Shown piece after piece: positions 22,682 to 41,979 of a DNA stretch of 57,072 bases (positions are counted from its first letter, which is position 1; each line of letters starts with the position of its first letter). The stretch is from Acidobacteriota bacterium (lineage in GTDB: Bacteria > Acidobacteriota > Vicinamibacteria > Vicinamibacterales > UBA2999): NCBI GenBank assembly GCA_030650395.1, contig JAUSDY010000158.1, positions 1-57,072 of the forward strand, given 5' to 3'. The position numbers and the translations under genes were made by a program. A model generated the notes under the pieces. The model ran no database searches. It was not told the origin of the DNA and saw only the letters and a program-made list of their open reading frames with translations.

Positions 22682-24997
22682 GTGGTTCATCCCGTGCGCC
22701 TCGGGCTGTCGCTGTTACTCCTGATCCTGGCGCCGGGGCACGCCTCCTCGCAAACCTCGAGTCCCTCCACCGGGCTGGTGTACGGCGGCGACCGCGAGTT
22801 CCCTCCGTACGAGTACCTCGACGAAAACGGCGATGCTCAGGGGTTCAACATCCACCTCGTGCGCGCGCTCGCGCGCGAAGCAGGCATGGCGATCGAGATC
22901 CGGCTGGGCCCGCGTGAAGAGCGCATGTCCGAGTTCGACGAGGGCAAGACGGACGTGATGTTCCTGTCGTTCTCCGATGACCGCGCCAAGCGTTACCAGT
23001 TGCTCGACCAGACCTGGACGCTCGCGCAAGTCGTCATGATGCGCCAGGGACTGCCCCGGTATCCGGAAGGCCTCAACGACCTCTGGGGGTTCCGGATCGC
23101 CGTGGACGAGAATTCGATCAACCACATCCTGCTCGCGTCGCTGCCGGAAGCGCGGCGGCCGACGCTGACCGTCGTGCCCACGCGCGGCGACGCCATCGGC
23201 GCGTTCGAGCGCGGGCAGGTGGACGGCGTGGCGGGCAACCACCTGACGATGCGTTTTCTGATGGGCCAGTTGGCGGCGGACGCGATCGAAGTGCCGCTGA
23301 TTTCACGGCCGTACCACATGGCGGTGTTGCCCGGCCGCGAACACGTCGTCGCGCCGCTGCGCGCCGCGCTCGATCGCCTCAAGGCCACCGGCGAGTTCGA
23401 TCGGCTGGTCGAGCAGCACCTGACCAATCCGGTTCGCCGCTCGTGGATCGAGCGCTACGCGGCCGCGCTCAGCGTCGCCGGCGGTTTCATGGTGCTGCTG
23501 TTTGTGGGCGGGACGGCGTGGAACCGCTCGCTGCAGCAGCAGGTGCGCGCCCGGACCAAGGCCGTCGAGCGCACCGAGCGCAGATATCGCGACCTGGTCG
23601 ACAACGCCAACGACATGATCTACCGGACCGACCCGTTCGGCCGGTTCACGTTTGTCAATCCGGTGGCGACCCGCATCCTGGGCTACGAGGAGGCGGAGCT
23701 GCTCACGATGAAGTACTTCGAGCTGATGCGGCCCGACTGGGTGCGGCGCGCCATGGGTTTCTACGAACAGTCGGCGAAGGCGCGGGAGTCGACCTACCTC
23801 GAGTTCCCGGTCCGCAAGAAAGACGGCACCGAAATCTGGGTTGGCCAGCAGGTGCGGCCGATCATCACGGGCGAGCGCATCGAAGGCTTCCAGGGGATGG
23901 CCCGCGATATCACCGAGCGCGTGAGCGCGCAGGCGGAGCTGCGGTCGGAACGCGACTTCGTCTCGGCCATCCTGGAGACGGCGCCGAGCCTCGTGATGGT
24001 GCTCGATTCAAAGGGCTGCGTGGTGCGCTTCAACCGCGCCTGCGAAGCGCTCTCCGGCATGTCGCTGGAAGAAGTGCAGGGCCTGGCGATCTGGGAGCTG
24101 CCGTTCCTGCTCGACGAGCAGCGCGGCGAAATTCAAAGGGGCATCCCACGGCTGCTGGAATCGAGCGTGCCGGTGACGCTCGATCGGACGTGGATTGGCG
24201 CGAGCGGCGGGCGCCACGTCATCGCGTGGACGGTGATGTCGCTGCGCGACCCGGTCGGCGCCACCAGGTTCCTGGTCGGGATTGGGTCGGACGTGACCAT
24301 GGCGCGCGAGCTGGAGCGGCTCAAGTCGCAGTTCGTGTCGATGGTCAGCCACGAGCTGCGCACGCCGCTGACGTCGATTCGCGCGTCGATGCAGCTGCTG
24401 ATCGCCGAGTCGATGACCGGCAACGACGATGCCGATCAGCTCGTCCGCGTGGCGCTCTCGAACGCCGATCGCCTGATCCGCATCGTCAACGACATTCTCG
24501 ACATGTCGAAGATCGAGGCGGGCGAGATGATGGTGACGCCACGGCCGATCAAGCTCGGGCCGATCATCGAAGATTCCATCCGCTCGATCGACGCGCTGGC
24601 GCGGGATGCCGGCGTCACCATCGTCAACCCCGCGATCGATCTGCCCGACGTGATGGCCGATCCGGATCGCACGATCCAAGTGCTGGTGAACCTGCTGTCA
24701 AACGCCGTCAAGCATGCACCGGCCGGCAGCACCGTGGAGGTGACCGCCGATCGCGAAGGGCCGCTGGTGGCGGTGGCGGTCCGCGACCATGGTCCCGGCA
24801 TCCCGGCGCACAAGGTGGATTTCATCTTCGAGCCGTTCACCCAGCTCGACGGCAGTGACACACGCCGCATCGCCGGCACCGGCCTGACGATCGCGCGCGC
24901 CCTGGCGGAAAAACAGGGCGGCACCATTCGCGTCTCATCGCGCGAGGGTCAAGGGGCGACGTTTACGATGACGTTGCCGATTGCGAATAACCAATAA
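22682..24997 (+). CDS. sensor histidine kinase with periplasmic solute-binding and two PAS domains
   Basis: 771 residues from a GTG. Order: signal peptide (1-24); family-3 solute-binding domain (about 30-255; PPYEYLDENGDAQGFNIHLV is the usual opening); transmembrane segment (about 265-285); coiled linker; PAS (about 300-415); PAS (about 425-540); HisKA with SHELRTPLTSI, His about 554; HATPase with N box NLLSNAVKHAP and GTGLTIARAL. It should sense a small periplasmic ligand such as an amino acid and pass phosphate to an unlinked response regulator; none is next to it. The stop codon (24995-24997) lies inside a repeat array, which also encodes the last residues ANNQ. Confidence 0.92.
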   Translation: MVHPVRLGLSLLLLILAPGHASSQTSSPSTGLVYGGDREFPPYEYLDENGDAQGFNIHLVRALAREAGMAIEIRLGPREERMSEFDEGKTDVMFLSFSDDRAKRYQLLDQTWTLAQVVMMRQGLPRYPEGLNDLWGFRIAVDENSINHILLASLPEARRPTLTVVPTRGDAIGAFERGQVDGVAGNHLTMRFLMGQLAADAIEVPLISRPYHMAVLPGREHVVAPLRAALDRLKATGEFDRLVEQHLTNPVRRSWIERYAAALSVAGGFMVLLFVGGTAWNRSLQQQVRARTKAVERTERRYRDLVDNANDMIYRTDPFGRFTFVNPVATRILGYEEAELLTMKYFELMRPDWVRRAMGFYEQSAKARESTYLEFPVRKKDGTEIWVGQQVRPIITGERIEGFQGMARDITERVSAQAELRSERDFVSAILETAPSLVMVLDSKGCVVRFNRACEALSGMSLEEVQGLAIWELPFLLDEQRGEIQRGIPRLLESSVPVTLDRTWIGASGGRHVIAWTVMSLRDPVGATRFLVGIGSDVTMARELERLKSQFVSMVSHELRTPLTSIRASMQLLIAESMTGNDDADQLVRVALSNADRLIRIVNDILDMSKIEAGEMMVTPRPIKLGPIIEDSIRSIDALARDAGVTIVNPAIDLPDVMADPDRTIQVLVNLLSNAVKHAPAGSTVEVTADREGPLVAVAVRDHGPGIPAHKVDFIFEPFTQLDGSDTRRIAGTGLTIARALAEKQGGTIRVSSREGQGATFTMTLPIANNQ

Positions 24998-25030
24998 CCA
25001 ATTACCAATTACCAATTACCAAGAACCAAG
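24986..25030. repeat. CCAATTA 7-mer array (left arm)
   Basis: About six units of ACCAATA/ACCAATT type start inside the last codons of the kinase gene. The array is the reverse complement of the one at 25571-25600; together they bracket the four-helix-bundle gene. Confidence 0.85.
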
Positions 25031-25444: not shown

Positions 25445-25570
25445 CGTGCATGGAGCGTTCCAGACACGTTCTGGCCTGAAATTGAATTCCAGCGGTTCGA
25501 GGATGGCAGTTTCTGACGCAATCGCGGGCGCGCGATGCGGCTAAAGTTGCGCGCGACGTCCCTGCAGTTT

Positions 25571-25600
25571 GGTTATTCGTAATTGGTTATTGGTTATTGG
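25571..25600. repeat. GGTTATT 7-mer array (right arm)
   Basis: Units GGTTATT, CGTAATT, GGTTATT, GGTTATT run up to the stop codon of the MATE gene (25601-25603). They are the reverse complement of the array at 24986-25030. Confidence 0.85.
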
Positions 25601-27019: not shown

Positions 27020-28924
27020 CTAAACATCGAGCTCGACGGCGTCTTCGGCCCTGTCCATGATGAAGCGGAACCGCGCCGATGCGTCCTTCCCCATCAGCTC
27101 GTTGATCACACGATCGGTCACAAGCTGGTCGGCGATTTCAACCTTCAACAAGCGCCGGGTGCGCGGGTTGAGCGTGGTTTCCCACAGCACCTTCGGCATC
27201 ATCTCGCCCAAGCCCTTGAAGCGGGTGATCTCCGGATTGGCGCGGCCGGATTTCTGCTTGATGATCTGCGCCTTTTGCGCCTCGTCCAGGGCCCAGAACG
27301 TTTCCTTGCCGATGTCGATGCGGTACAGCGGCGGCTGCGCGAGGTAGACGCGTCCGGCCATCATCAGTTGCGGCAGGTGCCGATAGATGAACGTCAGCAG
27401 CAGCGTCGCGATGTGGTGGCCGTCGGAATCGGCGTCGGCGAGGATGATCATCTTGCCGTAGCGCATGCGATTGAGGTCGAAGTTCTTCCCCACCCCGCAG
27501 CCGAGCGCCGTGACGAGGTCGGCGAGCTCCTTGTTCTCGAGGACCTTTGCCGTCGACACGCCTTCGGTGTTGAGCACCTTGCCTCGCAGCGGAAGAATCG
27601 CCTGGCGTGCGCGATCGCGGCCCTGCTTGGCTGAGCCGCCGGCGGAATCGCCTTCGACGACGAACAGCTCGCTCGTGATCGATCCGGGATTGGTGCAGTC
27701 GGCGAGCTTGCCGGGCAGGTTCACGCGCCCGGCGGTTGGCCCTTTGCGCACGACCTCGGCAGACGCGGCGCGGCTCGCTTCACGCGCCCGGGCCGACAGG
27801 ATGATGCGCGCGACGATCGATTCGGCAATCGACTGGTTGTTGTTCAACCAGTGTTCGAGGCCCGGCCGCACCAGCCCGTCAACCGCGGACATCACCTCAG
27901 GATTGTTCAAGCGATCCTTGGTCTGACCCTGGAACTGCGGCTCCTGGATGAAGATCGAGAGGATGCCGGTGAGGCCTTCGCGAATGTCTTCGGCGCTGAG
28001 CGTCACGCCCTTCGGCGACAGGTTGTGCGTCTCGATGTAGTTGCGCACCGCCTTGCCCAGCCCGGCGCGAAAGCCGTTCTCGTGTGTGCCGCCGGAGCCG
28101 GTTGGGATGCCGTTGACGTAACTGCGCAGGTTCTCGTCGGTCGCCTCGGTCCATTGCAGGACCAGCTCGATCTTGGCGCCGTTGTCTTTCTCGAGGGTGA
28201 ACGGGGCGTCGTGCACGGGCTTGGCGCCTCGCACGGCGACGATCTTCTTGAGGTAGTCGACCAGCCCTTCCTCGTGCTGGAAGACATCCTTCTGCCCGGT
28301 GGTGTCGTCGTCGAACGTCACCTTGACGCCGCGATGAAGGTAACTGGCGACCTCGAGGCGCTCGCGGATCAACTGCGGCTCGAACTCGACCTTCGGAAAG
28401 ATCTGCGGGTCGGGCTTGAAATACACGGTGGTGCCGCTGCCGCGCGCGGCACCCACTTTCTTCAAGCTGCCCGCGGGCTTGCCCTGCTTGAAGGTCATCT
28501 CGTACTGATGGCCATCGCGCCTGACGGTGGCCACCAGCTCGCGTGACAGCGCGTTGACGACGCTGGCGCCCACGCCGTGGAGGCCGCCGGCCGTCTGGTA
28601 GTTGCCGGCCTCGAACTTTCCTCCGGCATGCAGCACGGTGAAGATCACCTCGAGCGCGCTCTTCTTCGTTTTGGGATGGATGTCGATCGGAATGCCGCGG
28701 CCATCGTCTTCGATGGTGATCGACGAGCCGTCCTGATGCAGGGTGACGCGGATGTTCGAGGCGTAGCCGTTCATCGCCTCGTCGATCGAGTTGTCGAGCG
28801 TTTCCCAGACGAGGTGATGGAGGCCCGAGCTGCCGACGCCGCCGATGTACATGCCGGGGCGCTTGCGAACCGGCTCGAGCCCCTCGAGGACGGTAATGTC
28901 TTTCGCGGTGTATGAAGTTGCCAC
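27020..28924 (-). CDS. parE: DNA topoisomerase IV subunit B (or gyrase B)
   Basis: 634 residues from a GTG. GHKL ATPase domain: EPVRKRPGMYIGG, DNSIDEA, DDGRGIP, GLHGVGASVVNALS. Transducer about 230-400. TOPRIM: FVVEGDSAGGSAKQGRD (about 425) and ILADADSDGHHI (about 505). End: KGLGEMMPKVLWETT. The length and lack of the GyrB insertion fit ParE; the subunit A partner at 39485-41911 is in the same window but not adjacent. The complex unlinks and relaxes DNA using ATP. The ParE/GyrB choice should be treated as probable. Confidence 0.85.
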   Translation of the reverse strand: MATSYTAKDITVLEGLEPVRKRPGMYIGGVGSSGLHHLVWETLDNSIDEAMNGYASNIRVTLHQDGSSITIEDDGRGIPIDIHPKTKKSALEVIFTVLHAGGKFEAGNYQTAGGLHGVGASVVNALSRELVATVRRDGHQYEMTFKQGKPAGSLKKVGAARGSGTTVYFKPDPQIFPKVEFEPQLIRERLEVASYLHRGVKVTFDDDTTGQKDVFQHEEGLVDYLKKIVAVRGAKPVHDAPFTLEKDNGAKIELVLQWTEATDENLRSYVNGIPTGSGGTHENGFRAGLGKAVRNYIETHNLSPKGVTLSAEDIREGLTGILSIFIQEPQFQGQTKDRLNNPEVMSAVDGLVRPGLEHWLNNNQSIAESIVARIILSARAREASRAASAEVVRKGPTAGRVNLPGKLADCTNPGSITSELFVVEGDSAGGSAKQGRDRARQAILPLRGKVLNTEGVSTAKVLENKELADLVTALGCGVGKNFDLNRMRYGKMIILADADSDGHHIATLLLTFIYRHLPQLMMAGRVYLAQPPLYRIDIGKETFWALDEAQKAQIIKQKSGRANPEITRFKGLGEMMPKVLWETTLNPRTRRLLKVEIADQLVTDRVINELMGKDASARFRFIMDRAEDAVELDV

Positions 28925-30671: not shown

Positions 30672-31292
30672 ATGAAGACAATTTGCAGCGGAAACAGGAC
30701 GATTCTGGCCTTGGCGGCGGTATTTGCCGTGTCAAATCTGCTCGCCACCTCAGCATTCGCAGGGGGTCAAAGGCCGGAAGTGCAGCGCCTGTTCCAGTCG
30801 GGCGCCTACGACGAAGCGGTGCAGGCGGCACAAAACGGCGACCCGGCCTCGATATACGTCGCGGCCCAGGCAATGGTGAAAGCCGAACAGGTCGACCGCG
30901 CCCGCGAGCAGTTCTCGCGCCTGCGCACCAACGACAACCCCGCGTGGCAGCTGATCGCGCAATCTGGCGAAGCGCTCGTAGGCAGTGACAGCGGCCGCGC
31001 GGTGACGCTGGCGCGCCAGGCGGTTGAAGCGGCCGGCGACAATCCGTTCGCGTTCTATCAACTCGGCCTCGCGGCGGTCAAGGCCAACGACTGGGGTACC
31101 GCGGCGTCCGCCCTGTCTCGTGCAGCGGAGCTCAAGCCCGACTTCGCGTACGCGCATTACTACGCCGCGTTGTCGTATCAGCGTGCCCGGCAGTTGCCGA
31201 AGGCGGCCGAACACTTCGACGCATTCCTCCGCCTCGCCCCGGACGCTCCGGAGCGGCAGGCCGTGCAAGCAATTATGCGGACGCTCAAATGA
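30672..31292 (+). CDS. exported TPR-repeat protein
   Basis: 206 residues. A signal peptide (about 1-30, ending SAFA) is followed by four or more TPR-like helix pairs (AVQAAQNGDPASIYVAAQAM; PFAFYQLGLAAVKANDWGTAASALSRAAELKPD; FAYAHYYAALSYQRARQLPKAAEHFDAFLRL, read in parts). TPR repeats bind other proteins. The ATG at 30672 was chosen because it has a Shine-Dalgarno (ACAGGAG, about nine bases upstream) and begins the signal peptide. It converges on the TamB-Omp85 gene, so a role in the periplasm is likely, but no partner is known. Confidence 0.8.
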   Translation: MKTICSGNRTILALAAVFAVSNLLATSAFAGGQRPEVQRLFQSGAYDEAVQAAQNGDPASIYVAAQAMVKAEQVDRAREQFSRLRTNDNPAWQLIAQSGEALVGSDSGRAVTLARQAVEAAGDNPFAFYQLGLAAVKANDWGTAASALSRAAELKPDFAYAHYYAALSYQRARQLPKAAEHFDAFLRLAPDAPERQAVQAIMRTLK

Positions 31293-31405
31293 GTTCAGAG
31301 TGCAGAGTTAGGAGTTAAGAACGGCGTGTTGTTGACTCTACACTCTTAACTCTTAACTCTTAACTCTTAACTCTTAACTCTTAACTCTTAACTCTGAACT
31401 CTAGA
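31291..31405. repeat. CTCTTAA 7-mer array with inverted arm between convergent genes
   Basis: Seven perfect copies of CTCTTAA (31343-31391), then CTCTGAA and CTCTAG, which holds the stop of the minus-strand gene. On the other side GAGTTCAGAGTGCAGAGTTA (31291 onward) is complementary to them and begins inside the TPR gene stop. The whole can fold as a two-way terminator. Confidence 0.9.
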
Positions 31406-34400
31406 AGATGTGACCGAATCCGAAGTGCCAGCGCATGCTGGTGCTTCGGGTCGTCGACAACGCCGTTCTGGGAATTCCGATGTCGGCCCTGAACATTCCC
31501 AGCGGCGTGTCGAACCGCAAGCCGATTCCGTAACCAACGTTCAGATCGCGCCACGAAAACGATTCGCCTTTGCCGAAGATGTGGCCGGCATCGACGAACC
31601 CGACGCCGTGCACCCACCGGTAAATCGGGAACCGTGCCTCCTGGTTCAGGATCACCAGCGTCTCGCCGCCTTTCGGGATGCCCGACGCATCGCGAGGACC
31701 CAGGCTGTCTTCGCCGTAGCCGCGCACCGTCGTCGCGCCGCCGGCGCGGAAGGCATCGCTCGCCAGCAAATCGTCGGGGCCGAACACAAAACCGGTCTGC
31801 ACCCGCGATGCCAGCACGAAGCGCGAGCCCAGCGGCACGAAGGTGTGTTGCTGGAAGAGCAGCTTGCGATTCCTGACGTCGGAGCCCAGCCACAGTCCTG
31901 AGTGGTCCCACGAAATCGCGGTGAACGTTCCCTTGCGCGCGCTCAGCGGATCGTCGCGGCGATCGAACAGCGCCGCACCGCTCAGCCTGGCGAGGTTGAC
32001 CACGAAGTCGAGCGGAAACGGATCGCTTGGCGCCGGTGCGGGGTCGAATGTCCGGTTCCGCTCGAAACGATAGCCATAGACGACCTGGATGCCGCCGAAG
32101 CGCCAGCGCTGATCCGCGCTCACGCCCTGGCGGTTGGTGAGCGCCACGATGTCGAGGCCCTCCGCGTCTCTTATGCGAGCGTGCGAGTAAAACCCATACA
32201 GGCTCGATCGCGCGCGCCAGCCAAACAGCCGTGACGTCGCCAGGAACACGGTGGCGTCTTGCTGCTCGCGCTCGTATTGGCCGAACAGGCCCAGCGTGAG
32301 CGCCCGGCCCAACAGGTTGGGGTTCTTGATTTCCGCAACCAGCCCGAGATTGCGCGAGCTGGTGAACTCTTCGATGTCGGCCTTTCGCTCGCTTTCCAGT
32401 TGCGTGCCGTAACGCAACGACCAGGCGGGATACTCGACCACGCTGACTTGCGCCTTGACGGGCTGGACGCCATCAACGACTTCGCCCATCGGCACAGCCT
32501 GGATGTCGACCTGGCGGAATACGTTGGTGTCGTAGAGGCGCTTGCGAGCCCGCGCCCATTCGTCGAGATCGGCCGGCTTGCCAAGCTCGAAATGAAGCGC
32601 CTGGCTGATCACCTTGTCGCTAGTGATCTCGGTTCCGGTCGTGACCACTTCCCGGAGTACCTGTTGCGGCCCCTCGGTCACCTCGAACACCAGCGTGACC
32701 GTGTTGTCGTCGGCGACCTTGGTCTGGATTTCGACCTCCGCGGTATTGAAGCCTTCGGTGCGGTAGTGCTGCTCGATTCGACGGCGGGCCTCGTTAACCT
32801 CGGTGTTGATGAAGGGCGTAGGAGTTTCGACCGCCGCCGCTTTTTGCACGGCCGCCAGCCGCGCGTCGGGAACACCGGCCCAGCTCAGGTTCATGATCTG
32901 CGCGCGAGGCCCTTCGACGATGGTCACGGGCAGGACGCCGGTGTCGCCGTCGATGTCGAGCGGCCCGGCCGTGATCTGCGCCTTGAGAAAGCCCTGCTCG
33001 TTGTACAAGGTCTGCAGCTCCCGCTCGAGCACGGTGCGATCGAGCCAGGCTTCCACGTCAATCCCCGATGTGATCACTTCGTTCTGCAGGTCCTTGGCGT
33101 CGATGCCTTCGTTGCCGGTGAATCGAATCTCGCGGCCGGCCACCGATGCGCCGGGCGTGATGTCGATGCGCACCCGCTTGCTGTCGGGCGTGGGGCGATC
33201 GATGGTGCCGACGACGATGCTGGCCAGCTCGTTCTGGGTGACCAGGTAGCGGCGCACGCGGCCGGTCAGGTCTTCGATCAGGAACTGATCGAACGTGTTG
33301 CGGTGCCACGCCTCTCGCAGCGCCTCGATCTCGCTGTCGGGCAGGGTGGCGCCGTTGATCGCCAGGATGGTCCGCGGACCGCGTTCGACGCGGTACTCGA
33401 TCGCCACGGTGTTGGCCTCGGCATCTTCGATTCGCCTGGTCCGGATCCGCTCCTCGAGGAAGCCCTGATCGTGAAACGCCTCGCTGACGCGGTCGATGTC
33501 GCGCTGCAACACCAGGAAGTCGAATTGGTCGCCGGGTTCGAGCTTTAGCTGTGCCCGTACTTCCTGCTCGAGGGCGGGCTCGACGCCCTCGAACCGGATC
33601 TCGCTCACGGCAGGCCGCACGCGGCGCTCGATCGGCCGGGTGCCGGTGCCCGAGCCCAGGGTCACCTGGTGGCGGATGCCCAGGCTCACCGTCGCGTTGT
33701 CGCGCGAAAGAGCGCGCACTTCGACGTTATGTTTCGCTAGATAGCTAATGATGAAGGTCGTCTTGCCGCTCTCGCGCAGATTTTGCGAAATGGTGACCTC
33801 GACCTGGTCGCTCAGGCGTTTGCCGATCGTCAACCGCGTTGTCGGGTCGGTCTGGTTGCTGCCGCCGATCAGCGTGGGGTCTTCCTGATAGTCGCGGAAG
33901 TCGCGATCCGTGTAATCGCCGCGCTCGACCCTGAACGCGTCCAGGCCGATGGCGCGTCCGGTGACGCCGAGCAGGTCGGCCGAGAGCAAGGTCAGCGCCG
34001 TCTCGGCGTTAGGGTCGCCGACAATCATCGAGGCGATCTCGCCCGGCGTCATCGACCCGGCCTGCGTAGTGAGGTCAAGTTGCGGGCGCTCCAACGAGCC
34101 GGTCAGCGTCATCGTCACATCGTTCGAGTTAATCCGCGCTTCGGCGGCGATGTTGAACTCGGGATGGATGTGGCGGAGGTCGGTGAACGAGATGTCGCCG
34201 CGGGTGATCCGGAAGGTCCGCCCGGCGAGAAATATCTCGCCGCCCTCCCTCAGGGTGATGCGGCCATCCACGCCGGGCTCGGCGACCGTGCCGACCACTC
34301 GGAGGTCGGCGCCGGCTTCGAGGCGGCCGTAGTTGTTGTCGACGAGCATGTCCTCGGTCGTCGTCACCGCGAGGTTGAGGCGGAGGCGATCGAGGTACGG

Positions 34401-37400
34401 GCGCTCCGCCGTGGCCGACACAGGCAGGGTGGCGCGGCGCGCCAGCGACGCGATGGTGATGGTCTCGGTGTAGGCGCTCTGGGCAATGCGGATGTCGCCG
34501 GTCAGTGACGGGGCCTTGGGGTCGGGACGGAAGATGACGAGGGCATCGACCTCGCTGCGAAGCCCCTTCAGCAGCTCGATGGCGACGCCTTGCGCCTGGA
34601 TGTTGAGCGCGCCGCCGGTGATCGCAAGTCCCTCGACCTGCAAGGCGCCGTCGAGCGCGATATTGCCGCCGTTGGCGGAGCCGCGAAGGTTCTCGATCAA
34701 CAGCGTCTGGCCCGACATCGTGATCGGGCCCGTCAGTTCCGACAGCACCAGGCGCGGTTCGGCGATGGCGATCTCGGCGTCGTCGAGGGCGATCTGGCCG
34801 CCGAACGCGGGTTTCGACAAGACGCCGCCAATGCGCGCGTCGACGTTGGCGCTGCCGTCGAAGCCGACACTGCTCACGAAGGCCGACAACACCCGGAGGT
34901 CGACCAGGCCCTTGACCGACAGATCGAGCGGCGGATCGGTGGCGGCAAAGCCCACCGAGCCCGAGAGCGTCAGCGGATTGCTCGCCACCGACCACACCAC
35001 GTCGGTTGCGGTGACGGTGCCCTTCGCGAACTGGAACCGCGACGGCCGTTGTTGGGCGACGGGAATTCCCGAGAACGTGAACTTGGCGTCGTCCACGGTC
35101 AACTCACCGTCGATGGCGGCAAGCTCCAAGGTCGGCAGCTTCGCGCGGGCGCTGGCGGAAAAGTCGCCGACCACGCCGCCGGATGCGACGTTGCCGGTGA
35201 TCCGCGACACGGTCAGCGATTCGCCGTTGAGGGCGGCGTCGACGGTCAAGTTGCGGATCGCCGCCGGTCCTGCGCCCCAGGTGAACGTGCCGTTCTTGAG
35301 CGCGAGCGTGCCGACGGTGCCGGCGCGGTTGCCGGTGGATTCGAGCCGTACCGACAGCGGTCCGGTGCCGTCGAACGTCGCTGGCACGCCGAACGCTTTT
35401 CCGAGCCGGATCGCGTCCTGGAACTCGCCATCGAAGGTGCCGCGAAACTTTCTGTCGAGGCGCGTGGTCCACTCACCCGATGCCGCCAGGCGCCCCGCGC
35501 CGACGCGCATGTTCAGATCCTGGAGCGTGACATCGCTGCCGTGCAGCGAGACGCGCGCCGGCGTCATGAGGCTGACCGGAATGCCGCCGATGGCGGCGTC
35601 GAGCGCCTGCAGATCGAACACCGCGACGCGGTTGCGATCGTCGGCCAGGCGGCCCGATGCGGTGACGTTGCCCGACACGAACCCGAAGATCTCGCCTGGG
35701 ATCGCATTGGTGAGCGTTGCCAGCCTCGCGATCTCGAGGCGGTCGAGCACGGCGGTGGCCTTGTAGTCGTAGGGCGACGCCGTGGCGACCTGGGCATCCA
35801 CGTTTGCGCCAAGCGACGGCAGGCGCGCGGCGATGCGGGCGTAGTCGCCGAGCAGATCGACGGTGAGCTCGCCCGCGCCGATCAGCGCGCCCGCGGTGCC
35901 GCCGGTGAGCGCGAAATCAATCTTGGCCTGGCCGCCCGGCTTCGCCGTCGTGCCCGCCCCTGCGAACAGCAGCGAGAACAGCGCCTGCGTGTCGTTCGGT
36001 TGCAGCACGGTGCCACGCCATGACAGCCGATCGCCTTTGAAGCGCGCGTCGTACGCCCCGGTTTCCCAGGCGTAGCGGACGCGGCCATCGAGGTACCCGG
36101 CCCCCTGCGTCAGCGCCAGCGACGTGACGTCGATCGCCTCCCCCGTCACCATCGCCTTGGCGGTGACGCGATCGATCGGCTGGCCCGCCCAGGTCAGCGA
36201 CGATCCGGTGATGATGGTATCGAGCGTGTAAACGTCGAACGTGCCACCGAGCGTGGCGGTGGCGCGTATCGGGCCGGCGACGCGCCATGCCTCGGGCACG
36301 TCGCCCTGCAGCTCTTCGGCGTGCGGAGCATCCACCGTAAAACCGCCGGTCCAGGTACGGTTCGTGACGTCGGCGACAGCGTTGCCGGTAATCGATGAAG
36401 AGCCCTGGCGAAGGTCGATCGCGGTGATGTCGGCGCGGCGCATGTCGGCCACGACGTGGGCCGAAGCCTGCACGCGGCCGATCAGCGGCAGGTCGACCGC
36501 GTCGCCTTGCAGCTGCGTTTCGATCTCAGGCAGCCGGTACGAACCACCTAACGTCATCGGAAGGTCAACCGCGCCGTGCACCTCGGCGGCGATCTCCGGC
36601 ACCGGGAAGCCCAGCGTGGCGAGGCTCGCCGCGGCCGTCGCGACATCGCTGACACGCGCATGCGCGGGCCCTCCCATCGTCGACAGCAGCGCCGTCTTAC
36701 GATTGATCCGTCCCGACATCCGGCCTTCGAAATCAAAGCCGGGCAGGCGATGGTTGTGGTCGAACCGATAATCGTCGCCAACGATCGTGGCGCGCACGGT
36801 CCCGGTCATCGGCACCACATTCCGGCCGCCGCGGCCCGACGAGCGATTGGTGATCTCGAAGCGGCGCGGCTCGCCGAACTCGAACGTGCCCGAGCCGTCG
36901 AATGACGCGCCGATGGCTTGCGGCTCGACATCGGCCATCCGTAACGCGGCTTGCGCGTCGACGCCCTTCCACTCCGCGCTTGCCGTGCTGGGCGGCGTCT
37001 TGCCCCACGGCACCTTGAACGCGGCGCGGATCTCGCCGCCGCTTTGCGGAATCAGGGTCATGTCGGTACCGGTCGTCGCGTCCAGCGTCACCTTCACCGG
37101 TCCAACCATGCCGAGGTTGCGCTCGCGCCCAACCGACAAGTCGTTGCTCGTGGTGGCCAGCGTGAGCGTGTAACCGCGGAGCGGGCCGGTGAGCGTGCCG
37201 TCGATCGCGACGGTGCCGCCGACCGGTACCGGCGGCGGCGGGATCCAGTTCATCGCATGTTCGAGATCCACCACGCCCTTCATCGCCAGGTCGAAGTACG
37301 GCGAATCGAGCACGCGGTTAATCGGGCCGCTGATGAACGCGTTGATCTCGCTCGAGACCAGGCGCGCATCCTTCAACGACACGTTCGAGCCGTCGAAGGT

Positions 37401-38021
37401 CATCACCGTGTCGATCGGCGCGAGCGTCATGGTGCGCTGCTTGATGCGCACGGCGGTTTCGCCGCGAATGGCGAACGACCCCTCCGAGCCAAGCACCGTC
37501 TTCAACAACTCGGATTCGATGCGGGGCAGCTGGATGCTCCAGTCGCGCATCGTGTCCTCGTACTGCACGTCGAGCCCGAGTAGCGTCAGGCCGTGCACGG
37601 TGAGCCGGCGCGGTGTCTCCGGTGTGGGCGCGTTCGACGAGGGCGGAAGGTTCACGACATCGTTGGCGTCGCGATAGATGTCGACGAGGCCGCCTTCGAT
37701 CATGAGGTGATCGATCTCGAAGCGCCGGCGGTAGATCACCCAGGGCAGCTTGACCTCGATGCGCTGCGCGATCAGAAAGGGGCGGTCCTCATGCCCCTTT
37801 GCCGCGAGGCGCACGCCGCGGAGCGTAATTCTCCGGGTGATCGCGTTATAGCGAAGGTCGTCCGCCTTGAGTGCGAGGTTGTAGCGGGTGACGAAATCGG
37901 ACGCCCATGTCAGGGCCCGGCCGCGGGCCCACGGGGTGTGAACGGCCAGAAGGATGACCAAGGTGAGCCCGACGGCCAATGCCGCCAGCACGATCAGCCC
38001 CCGCCTCGCCCAAACCCTCAC
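31401..38021 (-). CDS. giant TamB-Omp85 fusion (inner-membrane anchor, beta-helix, five POTRA, barrel)
   Basis: 2206 residues from a GTG. Residues about 8-30 form a membrane anchor. Residues about 30-1465 are TamB/AsmA-like repeated beta-strand sequence (DUF490), ending with hallmarks RITLREGGEIFLAGRTF, GDISFTDLRHIHPEFNI, GSMTPGEIASMIVGDP and DPTTRLTIGKRLSDQVEV. Then five POTRA-like units start near 1470, 1555, 1630, 1710 and 1790, each ending in a VERGP/TPGA/VEGP/TEGP/VEYP-type turn. From about 1870 an Omp85 barrel follows, with GGATTVRGYGEDSLGP (the VRGF/Y loop) and a final FGFGHIF. In well-known bacteria TamA and TamB are separate proteins acting in outer-membrane protein or lipid transport. 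Here one chain would span inner to outer membrane. Confidence 0.92.
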   Translation of the reverse strand: MRVWARRGLIVLAALAVGLTLVILLAVHTPWARGRALTWASDFVTRYNLALKADDLRYNAITRRITLRGVRLAAKGHEDRPFLIAQRIEVKLPWVIYRRRFEIDHLMIEGGLVDIYRDANDVVNLPPSSNAPTPETPRRLTVHGLTLLGLDVQYEDTMRDWSIQLPRIESELLKTVLGSEGSFAIRGETAVRIKQRTMTLAPIDTVMTFDGSNVSLKDARLVSSEINAFISGPINRVLDSPYFDLAMKGVVDLEHAMNWIPPPPVPVGGTVAIDGTLTGPLRGYTLTLATTSNDLSVGRERNLGMVGPVKVTLDATTGTDMTLIPQSGGEIRAAFKVPWGKTPPSTASAEWKGVDAQAALRMADVEPQAIGASFDGSGTFEFGEPRRFEITNRSSGRGGRNVVPMTGTVRATIVGDDYRFDHNHRLPGFDFEGRMSGRINRKTALLSTMGGPAHARVSDVATAAASLATLGFPVPEIAAEVHGAVDLPMTLGGSYRLPEIETQLQGDAVDLPLIGRVQASAHVVADMRRADITAIDLRQGSSSITGNAVADVTNRTWTGGFTVDAPHAEELQGDVPEAWRVAGPIRATATLGGTFDVYTLDTIITGSSLTWAGQPIDRVTAKAMVTGEAIDVTSLALTQGAGYLDGRVRYAWETGAYDARFKGDRLSWRGTVLQPNDTQALFSLLFAGAGTTAKPGGQAKIDFALTGGTAGALIGAGELTVDLLGDYARIAARLPSLGANVDAQVATASPYDYKATAVLDRLEIARLATLTNAIPGEIFGFVSGNVTASGRLADDRNRVAVFDLQALDAAIGGIPVSLMTPARVSLHGSDVTLQDLNMRVGAGRLAASGEWTTRLDRKFRGTFDGEFQDAIRLGKAFGVPATFDGTGPLSVRLESTGNRAGTVGTLALKNGTFTWGAGPAAIRNLTVDAALNGESLTVSRITGNVASGGVVGDFSASARAKLPTLELAAIDGELTVDDAKFTFSGIPVAQQRPSRFQFAKGTVTATDVVWSVASNPLTLSGSVGFAATDPPLDLSVKGLVDLRVLSAFVSSVGFDGSANVDARIGGVLSKPAFGGQIALDDAEIAIAEPRLVLSELTGPITMSGQTLLIENLRGSANGGNIALDGALQVEGLAITGGALNIQAQGVAIELLKGLRSEVDALVIFRPDPKAPSLTGDIRIAQSAYTETITIASLARRATLPVSATAERPYLDRLRLNLAVTTTEDMLVDNNYGRLEAGADLRVVGTVAEPGVDGRITLREGGEIFLAGRTFRITRGDISFTDLRHIHPEFNIAAEARINSNDVTMTLTGSLERPQLDLTTQAGSMTPGEIASMIVGDPNAETALTLLSADLLGVTGRAIGLDAFRVERGDYTDRDFRDYQEDPTLIGGSNQTDPTTRLTIGKRLSDQVEVTISQNLRESGKTTFIISYLAKHNVEVRALSRDNATVSLGIRHQVTLGSGTGTRPIERRVRPAVSEIRFEGVEPALEQEVRAQLKLEPGDQFDFLVLQRDIDRVSEAFHDQGFLEERIRTRRIEDAEANTVAIEYRVERGPRTILAINGATLPDSEIEALREAWHRNTFDQFLIEDLTGRVRRYLVTQNELASIVVGTIDRPTPDSKRVRIDITPGASVAGREIRFTGNEGIDAKDLQNEVITSGIDVEAWLDRTVLERELQTLYNEQGFLKAQITAGPLDIDGDTGVLPVTIVEGPRAQIMNLSWAGVPDARLAAVQKAAAVETPTPFINTEVNEARRRIEQHYRTEGFNTAEVEIQTKVADDNTVTLVFEVTEGPQQVLREVVTTGTEITSDKVISQALHFELGKPADLDEWARARKRLYDTNVFRQVDIQAVPMGEVVDGVQPVKAQVSVVEYPAWSLRYGTQLESERKADIEEFTSSRNLGLVAEIKNPNLLGRALTLGLFGQYEREQQDATVFLATSRLFGWRARSSLYGFYSHARIRDAEGLDIVALTNRQGVSADQRWRFGGIQVVYGYRFERNRTFDPAPAPSDPFPLDFVVNLARLSGAALFDRRDDPLSARKGTFTAISWDHSGLWLGSDVRNRKLLFQQHTFVPLGSRFVLASRVQTGFVFGPDDLLASDAFRAGGATTVRGYGEDSLGPRDASGIPKGGETLVILNQEARFPIYRWVHGVGFVDAGHIFGKGESFSWRDLNVGYGIGLRFDTPLGMFRADIGIPRTALSTTRSTSMRWHFGFGHIF

Positions 38022-38148: not shown

Positions 38149-38700
38149 ATGCGTATGAAGTCATGGCTCAAGATCGGCCTCGGCGCCGCTCTGAGTCTGG
38201 TGGCGAGTACGACCGGTATGGCACAAGCACCCGCAGTGGAATTGAAGATTGGTGATGTGGCCCCCGCGTTCTCGGCGCCCGGATCGGACGGCAAGACGCA
38301 CACCCTTGCGGAGTCGAAGAGCAAGCAGGCGGTGGTGCTGGCGTGGTTCCCGAAAGCCTTTACCGGTGGTTGAACGGCCGAATGCAAGTCGCTCCGTGAG
38401 AGCGGCGATCTCATCCGTCAATACAACGTCGCGTACTACATGATCAGCGTCGACACACCCGAGGACAACAAGAAGTTCGCCGAGATGCACGAAGCGGACT
38501 ATCCCATCCTCAGCGACGTCTCGAAAGAAATCGCCAACAAGTACGGCGTGCTCGGGCCGTCGGGCCTGGCGCGGCGATGGACGTTCTACATCGCACCAGA
38601 CGGAAAGATCCTCCACATCGACAACGCGGTGAAGCCCGCGTCGTCTGGACCCGACATGGTGGCCAAGCTGGCCGAGTTGAATATCGCCAAGCGTAGGTAG
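38149..38700 (+). CDS. periplasmic peroxiredoxin with selenocysteine (TGA at 38371-38373)
   Basis: 183 residues if TGA at codon 75 is read as selenocysteine. Signal peptide about 1-24 (ends MAQA). The AhpC/TSA (BCP-like) fold is intact on both sides of the TGA: ELKIGDVAPAFSAPGSDG, VVLAWFPKAFTGG-Sec-TAECKSLRE, VAYYMISVDTPEDNKKFA, YGVLGPSGLARRWTFYIAPDG. Sec75 is exactly where the peroxidatic Cys (TPxC) belongs; Cys79 could resolve it. A hairpin at 38388-38406 fits a bacterial SECIS. GGAGG at 38136-38140 is eight bases from the ATG at 38149 and sets the start. It reduces peroxides in the envelope. It is divergent from the TamB-Omp85 gene and convergent with a second selenoprotein gene. Confidence 0.88.
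38388..38406 (+). promoter_or_regulatory. SECIS-like hairpin of the peroxiredoxin gene
   Basis: Stem GTCGCTC/GAGCGGC (seven pairs, one G-U) with loop CGTGA. The loop begins 21 bases after the TGA and has the GU that SelB recognises in bacterial SECIS loops. Confidence 0.7.
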
Positions 38701-38704
38701 CCAG

Positions 38705-38847
38705 GGTTCTTCACGAAGGTTCTTGACGGGGGTTCCGCACGAGGGTTCTTCACGAGGGTTCCGCACGAAGGTTCCGCACGAAGGTTCCTTACGGTGGTTC
38801 TAAGAACCTCCGTAAAGAACCTCCGTGAGGAACTACCGTGAGGAACC
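38705..38847. repeat. 13-mer tandem array with central palindrome between the two selenoprotein genes
   Basis: Seven exact-length 13-mers of GGTTCYKCACGAA type (38705-38795) run into the palindrome GGTTCTAAGAACC (38796-38808), then about three units in the opposite direction. The transcript of either strand can form one very long hairpin. The stop of the minus-strand gene (38833-38835) is inside the array, which also encodes its last few residues. Confidence 0.9.
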
Positions 38848-39444
38848 ATCGTGGGGAACATATCCAAAGTTGGCCAGACGTTCTCCCGAAACGGCGTACG
38901 CCGCCGCCGGCATGTCGCGCACCCCCGTGGCGTCAATCCATTTGTTGTAGAAGTTGAAAAGCGCGCACACGGTGATGGCGTCGTACAGCGCCTCCTCGCT
39001 CCAGCCCGCCGCCTTCGCCGCGTCGATGTCTTCCTTGCGCAGCCGGCTGGACTCGCCGTTCACTTTTTCGATGAATTCAAACAGCGCCTTCTCTCGATCG
39101 GGAATGGCAGCGGTTCGGTAATCCTGCAACACCGCGTCAACCAGTGACCGATTGCCCAGCAACGACGCCGCGACCGCGGCGTGCGAGCCAATTCAAAACG
39201 GACAGTCGTTACGCCTCGAGGTGAAGGCGGCAATGAGCTCGCGCAGGCCCGCCGGCAGCGGTGACGGGCCGCGCATCACGCCTTGCGTAAACTTCGACAG
39301 AAATTCAGTCCGGTCGGGCTTGTAGGCGAAGAGGTGCATGATCTGCGGAACCGGCTGGCCGGCCGCGCGCAGCCCGCCGATCATCCTGGTATACGGGCCG
39401 CCGGGGTCAGCCTGCTCGATTTCCGTGAGAAACATCGGGTCCAT
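38833..39444 (-). CDS. AhpD-like/CMD-family selenoprotein with CxxU motif (TGA at 39195-39193)
   Basis: 203 residues if TGA at codon 84 is read as selenocysteine. The family is carboxymuconolactone decarboxylase / AhpD-like, peroxidase-related subgroup. The active-site segment reads RRNDCPF-Sec-IGSHAAVAASL, so the usual CxxC...H becomes Cys81-x-x-Sec84 with His88. The part after TGA continues the fold without a gap (EKALFEFIEKVNGESSRLRKEDI, AITVCALFNFYNKWIDATGV in parts). A SECIS-like hairpin lies 18 bases after the TGA. GGAG lies six bases before the ATG. AhpD proteins use the redox pair to recycle or act as peroxidases. It follows parC by 40 bases on the same strand. Confidence 0.9.
39165..39182 (-). 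promoter_or_regulatory. SECIS-like hairpin of the AhpD-like gene
   Basis: In minus-strand RNA, ACGCCGC and GCGGCGT form a perfect seven-pair stem with loop GGUC. The loop begins 18 bases after the UGA and holds the GU expected in bacterial SECIS elements. Confidence 0.7.
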
Positions 39445-39484: not shown

Positions 39485-41911
39485 CTACGACTGGCCGTCG
39501 AGGCTCGGCAGCACGACTTCGCCGGGCACCACGCGGATGAACTGGCCGCGCTGCATCAGCTCGCGGCCCTTGCCGCCACGGCCGACGACCTCGTACTTCG
39601 TCGTGCTAATCGTCTGCTCGGCCCCGCGCGAGGTTTCCACTGTCAGCAGATCGCGATCGCCGCTCGAGACGATCGCGCCGATCACCTTGTCGTCGGGGAA
39701 GTCGATCTTGATCAGGATCACGCCGCGGCCCGGGCCGGACAGAAAATTTACTTCCTCAGCCGGCGTCAGCATGGCGCGGGCCGCAGCGGTTGCGGCAATG
39801 ATGGTTTCTTCACCGGTCGTAATCGAGACATTCACCACTTCCGCACCTTCGGCGGTGCGCGCGTAGCGGCGCCCCGAACGGGTGCTCACCTCGACGAAGC
39901 CTTGCAGTGAGAAGCGCAGGGCGTAGCCGTCACTGGTCATCGCGACCGCATGGACCGGCGGCACGTCGCCCTCTTTCTTCGCCTCGATCTTCTTCGCGAT
40001 ACGCGGGTCGAGGCTGAAGGCGGCGACGACCCGCTCGCCGTCCTTGAACTTGAACAACTTCTGCACCGGCTCGCCATAGCCGGTCGAAGCCGGGACGTCG
40101 ACAATGCGGCTGGTATAGGCGACGCCGAAGTTGGTGAAGAACACCATCGTGGCGCGCGTGCTGCCGGCGATGGCCGACAGCACCGCATCGCCTTCGCGCA
40201 GGCGCGTCGTCGAAAGGTCCTTCACTTCCTTCTGCCGCTTCACCCACCCGTCGCGCGAGACGATGACCACGTTGTCTTCCTCGACGATGAAGGCGTCGGC
40301 GGAGTATTCGACCTCTTCGGCTTCTTCGATGATCGAGCGGCGCGGATCGGTCTTGGGATTGCCGTACTTCGCCTGGATCTCTTCGAGCTCCTGGCGCACC
40401 AGCTTCCAGCGGCCCTCTTCGTCTTTGAGCAGCGTGCCGATCTGCTTCGCGCGCTTCCGCTTCTCGCCGAGCTCGGTCTGGATCACCAGGATCTCGAGGC
40501 GGGCGAGGCGGTACAGCTTGAGCTCGAGAATCGCGTCGGTCTGCTCGGCGTCGAGCGAGAACCGCGTCATGATCTTTTCAGCCGAGTCGGCCTTGCCGTC
40601 CGACTTGCGGATGATCTTGATGATCTCGTCGAGCGCGTCGAAGACCTTCTCGAAGCCCTCGAGAATATGGATACGCCGCTGCAGCTGCTCGCTCTCGTGC
40701 TCGAGCCGGTTGGTCACCACTTCGAGGCGGAAGTGGAGGAAGTGCCAGAGCATCTGCTTGAGGTCGAGGCGCTCGGGGCGGCCGGCCTCGGCGTTCTCGG
40801 TCGGCACCAGGCAGGTCATGTTCACCGCAAACGTGGTCTGCAGCGACGTGTGCTTGAACAAGTACGCCATCACGAGGTTGTCGTCAGCCCCCGGCTTCAG
40901 CTCCAGCTCGATCCGCACATCGTCTGTCGAGACGTCTCTGACGTCGACGAGATGAGGCATCTTGCGGCTGAGGACCACGTCGCCGATCTGCTCGACGAGC
41001 TGCGACTTGTTCACGGCGTAGGGAATGCTGGTGATGTAGAGCTTTTTGTCCGAACGCGACGACGCGCCGACTTCCCACGTGGAGCGCAGCCGGATCGAAC
41101 CGGAGCCAGTCCGGTAGATCTCCTTGAGCTCGTCCGGGGAGTTGAGGATGTGGCCGCCGGTTGGAAAGTCGGGACCCTTGACCCACCGGCATAACTGCAA
41201 GGTTGTGAGGTCGGGGTTGTCGAGCAGCTTGAGCAGCGCCGCGCAAATCTCGTGGAGGTTATGGGGCGGGATGTTGGTCGCCATGCCCACCGCAATGCCG
41301 GTACTGCCGTTGATCAGGAGGTTGGGCAGGCGCGACGGCAGCACGATGGGCTCGCTCTTGGTGCCGTCGTAGCTTGGCCGGAACGGCACCGTCTCCTGCT
41401 CGATTTCCTGCAGCACTTCGTCGGCGATCCGCGCGAGGCGGCACTCGGTGTAGCGCATCGCCGCGGCGCCGTCGCCGTCGAGTGATCCGAAGTTGCCCGA
41501 GCCGTCGACCAGCGGGTAGCGCAGCGAGAACGACTGCGCCATGCGCACGAGCGTCTCGTAGATGGCGCTGTCGCCGTGCGGGTGAAAGTTGCCCATCACG
41601 TCGCCGACGACTTTGGCGCACTTGCGATGCTTCGCGTCTGCGGTCAGGTTCTGCTGCCACATCGTGAACAGGATGCGGCGCTGAACGGGCTTGAGGCCGT
41701 CGCGCACATCAGGCAGCGCGCGCGAGGTGATCACCGACAGCGCGTAATTGAGATAGCGCGACTGCGCCGCTTCGTGCAGCGACACGTTGGAGGTGCCGTC
41801 GCCGCCGATCGGCGTAAACGACCGGCCGCCCGGCGGTGGTGGCGGGCCGCTGCTAAGGTCGTCGTTGTCGGGTAGATCGAAAAGCGAGGGCTCGGATCTG
41901 CGTTTCGCCAC
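39485..41911 (-). CDS. parC: DNA topoisomerase IV subunit A (or gyrase A)
   Basis: 808 residues from a GTG. Winged-helix/tower part: [61 protein letters not shown] and the catalytic Tyr in MRYTECRL (about residue 153), which forms the phosphotyrosine link to DNA. A long coiled coil (about 370-500) and a C-terminal beta-pinwheel (about 530-800) follow. A GyrA-box-like GRGGKG appears only in the last blade. Forms the A2B2 enzyme with the subunit B gene at 27020-28924. The assignment as ParC rather than GyrA is probable, not certain. Confidence 0.85.
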
Positions 41912-41944
41912 TGTGAACTGTTAACTTTAGCTTCTAAACTGACA

Positions 41945-41979
41945 CTTCCAACTTCCAACTTCCAACTTTCAACTTCAAT
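41945..41979. repeat. CTTCCAA 7-mer array
   Basis: Three perfect CTTCCAA units and two variants. The stop codon of the minus-strand FAD oxidase (41977-41975) lies in the last unit. No clear inverted arm; a short hairpin (TTTAG/CTAAA) lies beyond it towards parC. Confidence 0.85.

Follow-up and report, generated by a model that had tools for sequence, protein, structure and literature searches.

A TamB-Omp85 fusion encoded in one open reading frame and kept widely in Acidobacteriota

In a genome of the Acidobacteriota, a TAM-type TamB and an Omp85 protein, elsewhere separate partners, are encoded as one chain, and this fusion is real and widely kept in the phylum. The gene lies in a window of 57,072 nucleotides, the whole stretch of DNA that was analyzed (contig JAUSDY010000158.1 of assembly GCA_030650395.1), where it occupies a single minus-strand frame at 31401-38021 that opens with GTG, encodes 2206 amino acids and contains no internal stop. 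The initial annotation had described an uninterrupted TamB-Omp85 frame of this length, and our analysis bore this out: the minus-strand frame was stop-free, with no missed stop/start pair. We consider it probable that the product acts as a covalently locked TAM, in which a helix would serve as anchor, a groove would accept phospholipid and a tether would lead to the chain's own Omp85, operating beside BamA and an unfused pair.

Domain content and predicted structure of the fused protein

The gene, its parts and a neighboring gene are as follows.

31401-38021, minus strand: whole fused gene (2206 amino acids plus stop)
37941-38021, minus strand: N-terminal hydrophobic helix, residues 1-27, presumed inner-membrane anchor (model, hydropathy)
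34065-37940, minus strand: TamB/AsmA-like extended beta groove with amphipathic strands, residues 28-1319 (Pfam, model, hydropathy)
33657-34064, minus strand: C-terminal domain of TamB, with helices, OMP-like strands and RHQVTL at its end, residues 1320-1455 (model, alignment)
33612-33656, minus strand: linker from TamB to POTRA1, residues 1456-1470 (low model confidence; least conserved sequence, narrow length range)
33378-33611, minus strand: POTRA1, residues ~1471-1548 (Pfam, model)
33147-33377, minus strand: POTRA2, residues ~1549-1625 (model)
32907-33146, minus strand: POTRA3, residues ~1626-1705 (model)
32670-32906, minus strand: POTRA4, residues ~1706-1784 (model)
32427-32669, minus strand: POTRA5, residues ~1785-1865 (model)
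31404-32426, minus strand: 16-stranded Omp85 barrel, residues ~1866-2206, with VRGY and terminal Phe (Pfam, model, structure match)
30672-31292, plus strand: gene for a TPR protein whose start resembles a signal peptide, convergent with the fusion and kept beside it within the order Vicinamibacterales (profile, loci comparison)

Pfam searches of the fused protein identified TamB/DUF490 (PF04357) at residues 1111-1442 (E 2e-30, 106.8 bits against a cut-off of 22.4), POTRA (PF07244, E 1.7e-27) and, at residues 1902-2206, Omp85 (PF01103, E 1.3e-37), the last two likewise over their cut-offs, and both TVRGY and a C-terminal F were present. The DUF490/TamB hallmarks and the complete barrel with VRGY and terminal Phe, as first annotated, were thus confirmed by Pfam, the sequence itself and the structural model, and Pfam and the model also place the protein in the Omp85 superfamily by its POTRA repeats and barrel. 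The proposed count of five POTRAs was recovered as five units in the AlphaFold2 model (residues ~1471-1865), whereas Pfam alone passed four individual stretches. By NCBIfam cut-offs, the fused protein is none of the BamA, TamA and TamB equivalogs: it scored 201.2 bits against the BamA model TIGR03303 (cut-off 297.15), 74.9 bits against the TamA model NF047950 (cut-off 625; five POTRAs in the structural model instead of three) and 38.4 bits against the TamB model NF047952 (cut-off 825), to which the genome's unfused TamB scored 34.2.

The chain was modeled by AlphaFold2 in two pieces, which overlap only at residues 1100-1140, with alignments of relatives. The piece covering residues 1100-2206 (36 alignment rows; pLDDT 76.7, pTM 0.64) revealed the helices and strands of the TamB C-terminal domain, a low-confidence linker at ~1456-1470, five POTRAs and 16 barrel strands, and the domain order proposed around the DUF490-POTRA junction was accordingly recovered. 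It matched TamA (8us1) with Z 21.4 and rmsd 7.6 over 511 aligned residues, covering POTRA3-5 and the barrel, and the full five-POTRA BamA (9mge_A) with Z 19.9 and rmsd 15.4 over 684 aligned residues. The piece covering residues 1-1140 (34 alignment rows; pLDDT 88.3, pTM 0.53) had helices at 2-27 and 30-45 and beyond them nearly all strands. Its top Foldseek match was ApoB100 (E 9e-9), a weak one, and TamB was absent from the best 50 Foldseek matches listed. Further structure matches were weak too, namely the LPD-3 complex (Z 8.8), Vps13 (Z 7.1) and the TamB of TamAB (9xdc_B; Z 7.6, rmsd 4.9, 177 aligned), and many porin-like barrels scored alike (Z 7-9). Across 67 strands of the TamB part, the two faces differed in hydropathy by 2.61 on average, compared to 1.53 after shuffling, and none of 500 shuffles reached as high a value.

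The passages of Heinz 2015 (PMC4494059) that define the TamB family name an inner-membrane signal-anchor, a beta-helix, a conserved domain architecture and an OMP-mimicking C-terminal region. Beta-helical structure was predicted for residues 1-1140, and OMP-like strands, internal in this protein, were recognized at 1396-1455 in a by-eye comparison with E. coli TamB and unfused TamB ends. At the N terminus, the most hydrophobic 19-mer of the fused protein had a mean hydropathy of 3.08, and a 19-mer of at least 2.19 lay near the N terminus of 32 of 34 fusions (L060 and L076 were lower). An AxA triplet usable by signal peptidase followed the hydrophobic stretch in 16 of the 34, but not in the window's protein. 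The anchor of the fused chain is thus likely, though not certainly, uncleaved.

Conservation, gene neighborhood and phylogeny

Full-length, one-frame fusions were present in seven of eight congeners, and in the eighth (G006) the gene was cut by a contig edge; close relatives thus encode one gene here and not two. Matches to the fused protein occurred in all of the 60 nearest genomes, in some of them to unfused genes only. By hand count, 43 of the 60 carry the fusion, 32 as frames longer than 2000 amino acids and 11 as frames that fall short of this but nonetheless span the junction, mostly at a contig edge. It was not seen in the remaining 17, among them G024, where a contig edge leaves just the barrel end visible, and the single-contig, 100% complete genomes G038 and G050. 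Fusion status was judged from matches crossing the junction, as listed open-frame lengths are partly unreliable: in G003 and G058, where listed frames of 2375 and 2411 amino acids had made a second, independent fusion of the pair a candidate, the loci revealed frames of 1376 and 1420 amino acids with the Omp85 in another frame, and this candidate was rejected.

A contig scan with two peptide patterns, which missed the fusions of many other Acidobacteriota families, yielded 42 loci. Forty of these (L044-L083) are fusion relatives, and in all 40 the junction lies in one open frame; 33 frames are free of contig-edge cuts and measure 2158-2452 amino acids, and seven are cut. The two remaining loci (L084 and L085) match the Omp85 end only. 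All relatives are labeled Acidobacteriota except for two labeled Acidimicrobiia and one labeled Cyanobacteria, which are probably mislabeled bins. In a draw of 396 Acidobacteriota genomes, 225 matched the profile at 1e-60. With the best two candidates per genome scored and the listed matches counted by hand, so that the counts are lower bounds, a single match ran from the TamB part through the barrel end in at least 79 genomes from at least 29 family codes (about a fifth of the draw), and partial matches crossed the junction in at least seven more; listed rows that did not cross it mostly match the Omp85 part alone. Ten loci from other families (L131-L140), read directly, are single frames of 1926-2450 amino acids with both domains in each, and two of them (L135 and L136) stand outside the 79 counted genomes; among the directly read loci, two are on contigs of 5.99 and 4.11 Mb. 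Two fused genes were seen in each of three genomes: G404 (L148, L102), G028 (L146, L029) and G007 (L147, L020).

These results bear on the possibility that an assembly or sequencing error, such as a frameshift, had joined two genes. The scan relatives with one-frame junctions (40/40), the junction-crossing matches in at least 79 of 396 genomes and the directly read frames together refute such an origin, whose probability we regard as negligible. Because no fusion was seen in 17 of the 60 nearest genomes and it was counted in about a fifth of the 396, as a lower bound, not every member of the phylum needs it.

In 35 of the 40 scan loci, the TPR gene and the fusion converge tail-to-tail, the TPR gene being 6-172 bases from the fusion end, and two (L061 and L082) of the five loci without a visible TPR gene end too early to show one. 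Among the 60 relatives, TPR matches below 1e-25 were found in 37 of 43 fusion genomes versus 2 of 17 others (Fisher 1.1e-7, ignoring kinship), and one of these two is G024, with a fusion end beside its TPR gene. Of 21 further fused loci, most of which had little flank, 2 had a TPR profile match next to them (L102 within the order, L131 outside it), whereas none of 11 loci with the two-gene pair did, most likewise with little flank. We can only guess that the TPR protein is an accessory that docks on the POTRAs.

Several other features surround the gene. Gyrase/topoisomerase IV B-type and A-type genes flank the fusion (27023-28924 and 39488-41911, both minus strand), and in some of the scan loci topoisomerase genes are again found nearby (flanks of at most 7 kb). 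A peroxiredoxin-like gene (38155-38700, plus strand) has a single in-frame TGA where the active-site residue is expected (FPKAFTGG-TGA-TAECKS), which likely encodes selenocysteine. Next to it, an AhpD-like gene (38833-39444, minus strand; assigned to its family by eye), in which an in-frame TGA occupies the second-Cys position (CPF-TGA), likely specifies a second selenoprotein. One tRNA-Sec match in the genome exceeded the Rfam cut-off (65.9 versus 47 bits), as did matches in 5 of 14 control genomes; within the window, no Rfam family was over its cut-off. Arrays of a 13-base repeat (periods 13, 26 and 39) lie between both likely selenoprotein genes (38703-38859), and heptamer tandem repeats lie near gene ends at 31335-31402, 24986-25029, 25569-25600 and 41944-41976. 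One of them, an ACTCTTA array of 8.7 copies, extends into the fusion gene's stop codon.

Trees of the two halves, as proposed at the outset, were built with the window's protein and 14 of 35 scan fusions (set A2); L103, L104, L111, L113 and L115, which comprise duplicates, near relatives and a fragment, were excluded. In the Omp85 tree (50 rows), 31 of 35 fusions form one group (support 100/99), the two-gene pairs form two groups, the position of the fused rows L132, L133, L134 and L140 is not settled, and E. coli BamA groups with the BamAs of the window genome (97/100) and not with the fusions. In the TamB tree (46 rows), ten pairs (of 11 pair rows, L130 having no TamB in its stretch) form one group (94/94), which the same four fused rows adjoin (94/98); the remaining fusions fall into several groups whose branching order lacks resolution, and it is the Omp85 tree alone that unites the 31. 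Very long branches lead to E. coli TamA and TamB (3.91 and 4.22), whose placement is unreliable. A single fused clade was not rejected (p-AU 0.251 and 0.495). In these trees the two-gene pairs are separate from the main fused lineage, which speaks against their being a two-gene version of the same gene, but the four divergent fused rows adjoin them in the TamB tree. With these four rows near the pairs, and the other 31 forming a single group in just one of the two trees, fusion may have happened more than once.

Coexisting unfused systems and the TamB-POTRA1 junction

The genome that carries the window (5.41 Mb, 180 contigs, 98.4% complete) yielded seven Omp85 hits and two TamB hits. The search for separate bamA and tamB genes suggested by the initial annotation located both BamA-type genes and a two-gene TamB-Omp85 pair. 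Contigs C124 and C51 encode BamA-type proteins above the TIGR03303 cut-off, with 472.6 and 299.7 bits, the latter from a gene cut by the contig start, downstream of which Skp was matched weakly (28.1 bits against a cut-off of 237). On contig C30, a TamB of 1376 amino acids precedes a separate Omp85, so that the gene order mirrors the domain order of the fusion. By hand count, each of the 60 nearest genomes has a TamB match that lies apart from any fused frame, several of the frames being short. In most loci read, the stretch that unfused Omp85s share with the fusion was preceded by extra POTRA-like profile matches. Acidobacteria were reported to encode BamA a second time, in some cases with seven POTRAs, and to have TamB and BamA in an operon (Heinz 2015, PMC4494059, in the sections covered), which fits both the extra matches and the unfused pair. 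Fusion wording does not occur in the main text of that paper, where we saw no fusion described. The BamA genes and the unfused pair rule out the fusion as the cell's sole BamA/TamB; judged from sequence, it is an additional TAM-type paralogue beside them.

The coexisting genes also bear on a function mainly in OMP assembly, in which the chain would insert a subset of OMPs, the groove would shield their beta strands and lipid transport would be minor. The BamA-like set of five POTRAs and the TIGR03303 score (201.2 bits, though below the cut-off) are in line with such a role, as is the OMP assembly by TAM reported in vitro (PMC11341756, in the part covered). However, two BamA-type genes over the TIGR03303 cut-off are already present in the same genome, and the fused Omp85 falls below both the BamA and the TamA cut-offs. 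We therefore regard a specialized OMP-assembly role as somewhat unlikely and continue to favor a covalently locked TAM.

The fusions share a short linker between TamB and POTRA1, with a length of 12-28 residues (median 16) in 60 of 61 fusion rows (L133 was skipped, and the TamB end was extrapolated from the profile in a few divergent rows). Its sequence is the least conserved element measured (majority identity 0.38, others 0.46-0.72), and R, A, P and G are often present. In contrast, the terminal strands of TamB are kept, with a majority identity of 0.57-0.72: R1450 and H1451 each occur in 34 of 36 fusions, and position 1455 is F in 26 and L in 6, the window's protein being among the latter. 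This genome's unfused TamB ends in ...RKRHAF-stop, and E. coli TamB in ...YQFEF-stop. Because the terminal strands are kept and unfused TamBs stop there, the fusion point can be placed just past the old TamB C terminus, ahead of POTRA1. The joint of TamB to POTRA1 had been expected near residue 1465, in agreement with the linker at ~1456-1470.

A cut in this linker would turn the fusion into a merely translational one, with a single pre-protein being processed in the periplasm into a two-protein TAM with matched amounts of both parts. Low model confidence and low conservation of the linker, as well as its frequent R, A, P and G residues, would be compatible with a cleavage site. Its narrow length range in 60 fusions and the lack of a conserved motif in linker columns past the first Gly residues (alignment of 36 fusions) point the other way, and we consider cleavage unlikely.

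The kept terminal strands raise a further question. In E. coli, the last strand of TamB (residues 1251-1259) was reported to form a hybrid barrel by pairing with beta-1 of TamA (PMC12800296, in the part covered), and for Borrelia, BamA completed by TamB strands has been modeled (PMC13382580, likewise in part). By analogy, the last TamB strand of the fusion might permanently complete the barrel of its own Omp85, and the chain would then be a structural tether instead of an active insertase. Retention of the pairing strand in the fusions and the two cited systems speak for this arrangement. The hybrid-barrel model would, however, put the last strand at the gate, whereas in the fusion ~16 residues tie it to POTRA1, at the far end of the POTRA arm, and such a short linker may not reach. 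A permanent intramolecular hybrid barrel thus seems to us rather improbable.

Proposed mode of action and relation to known TAM systems

In the covalently locked TAM that we favor, the N-terminal helix would anchor the chain in the inner membrane, and ~1300 residues of TamB-type beta groove would span the periplasm, forming a hydrophobic trough whose cargo would most likely be phospholipid moving outward. The groove would end in an intact TamB C-terminal domain, which a tether of ~15 residues would connect to POTRA1 in the Omp85 part of the same chain; the tether would stand in for the diffusible TamB-POTRA contact of an ordinary TAM and fix the stoichiometry at 1:1. At the outer membrane, the last strands of TamB and the lateral gate of the Omp85 would serve for delivery, in the manner of E. 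coli TamAB. For this, the last TamB strand would have to sit at the gate while ~16 residues hold it at the far end of the five-POTRA arm, a geometry that one chain may not allow. OMP insertion is a possible second activity of the fused chain.

The TAM of Proteobacteria, as represented by E. coli TamAB (PDB 9xdc, 9xdd), resembles the fusion in its N-terminal membrane helix followed by the TamB groove, its OMP-like C-terminal strands and its Omp85 barrel. It differs in being encoded by two genes in the order tamA-tamB, as opposed to one chain in the order TamB-Omp85, and TamA has three POTRAs where the model of the fusion has five. As far as the covered parts of the respective reports go, E. coli TamAB carries phospholipid outward (PMC12800296), removal of TamA POTRA1 abolishes TamB binding (PMC4525385) and TAM assembles OMPs in vitro (PMC11341756). 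Borrelia also combines TamB with a BamA-type Omp85, and contact between TamB and the POTRAs was reported (PMC13382580, PMC11361582, in part). There, the proteins are encoded separately and the partner is BamA, whereas the Omp85 of the fusion is an extra paralogue beside BamA. Omp85-WD40 proteins have been remarked on as reminiscent of a BamA-BamB fusion, and in the search results and passages of open-access papers covered, we found no report of a TamB-Omp85 fusion.

In chloroplasts, TIC236 and TOC75 form a comparable system, a TamB-type bridge docking on an Omp85 protein, with two proteins versus one chain here. If the fusion spans both membranes as predicted, it would be, to our knowledge, a rare case of a single chain residing in two membranes. 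There is a nearly even chance that it represents a family, widespread in the phylum, of uncleaved single chains held in the inner membrane by a helix at one end and in the outer membrane by a beta-barrel at the other, which would serve as a conduit for lipid, and perhaps OMPs, in parallel to the unfused TAM and BAM, with the TPR protein as partner in some lineages.

The fusion touches on three questions of TAM biology: where the TamB C terminus is located, in which stoichiometry TamB stands to Omp85 and whether lipid passes from the groove to the outer membrane. Encoded as one chain and kept through deep divergence, it would fix a 1:1 TamB-Omp85 geometry, with the TamB end within ~12-28 residues of POTRA1. 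This constraint at the junction is directly comparable with the hybrid-barrel structure, and the fusion offers a one-gene system for reconstitution.
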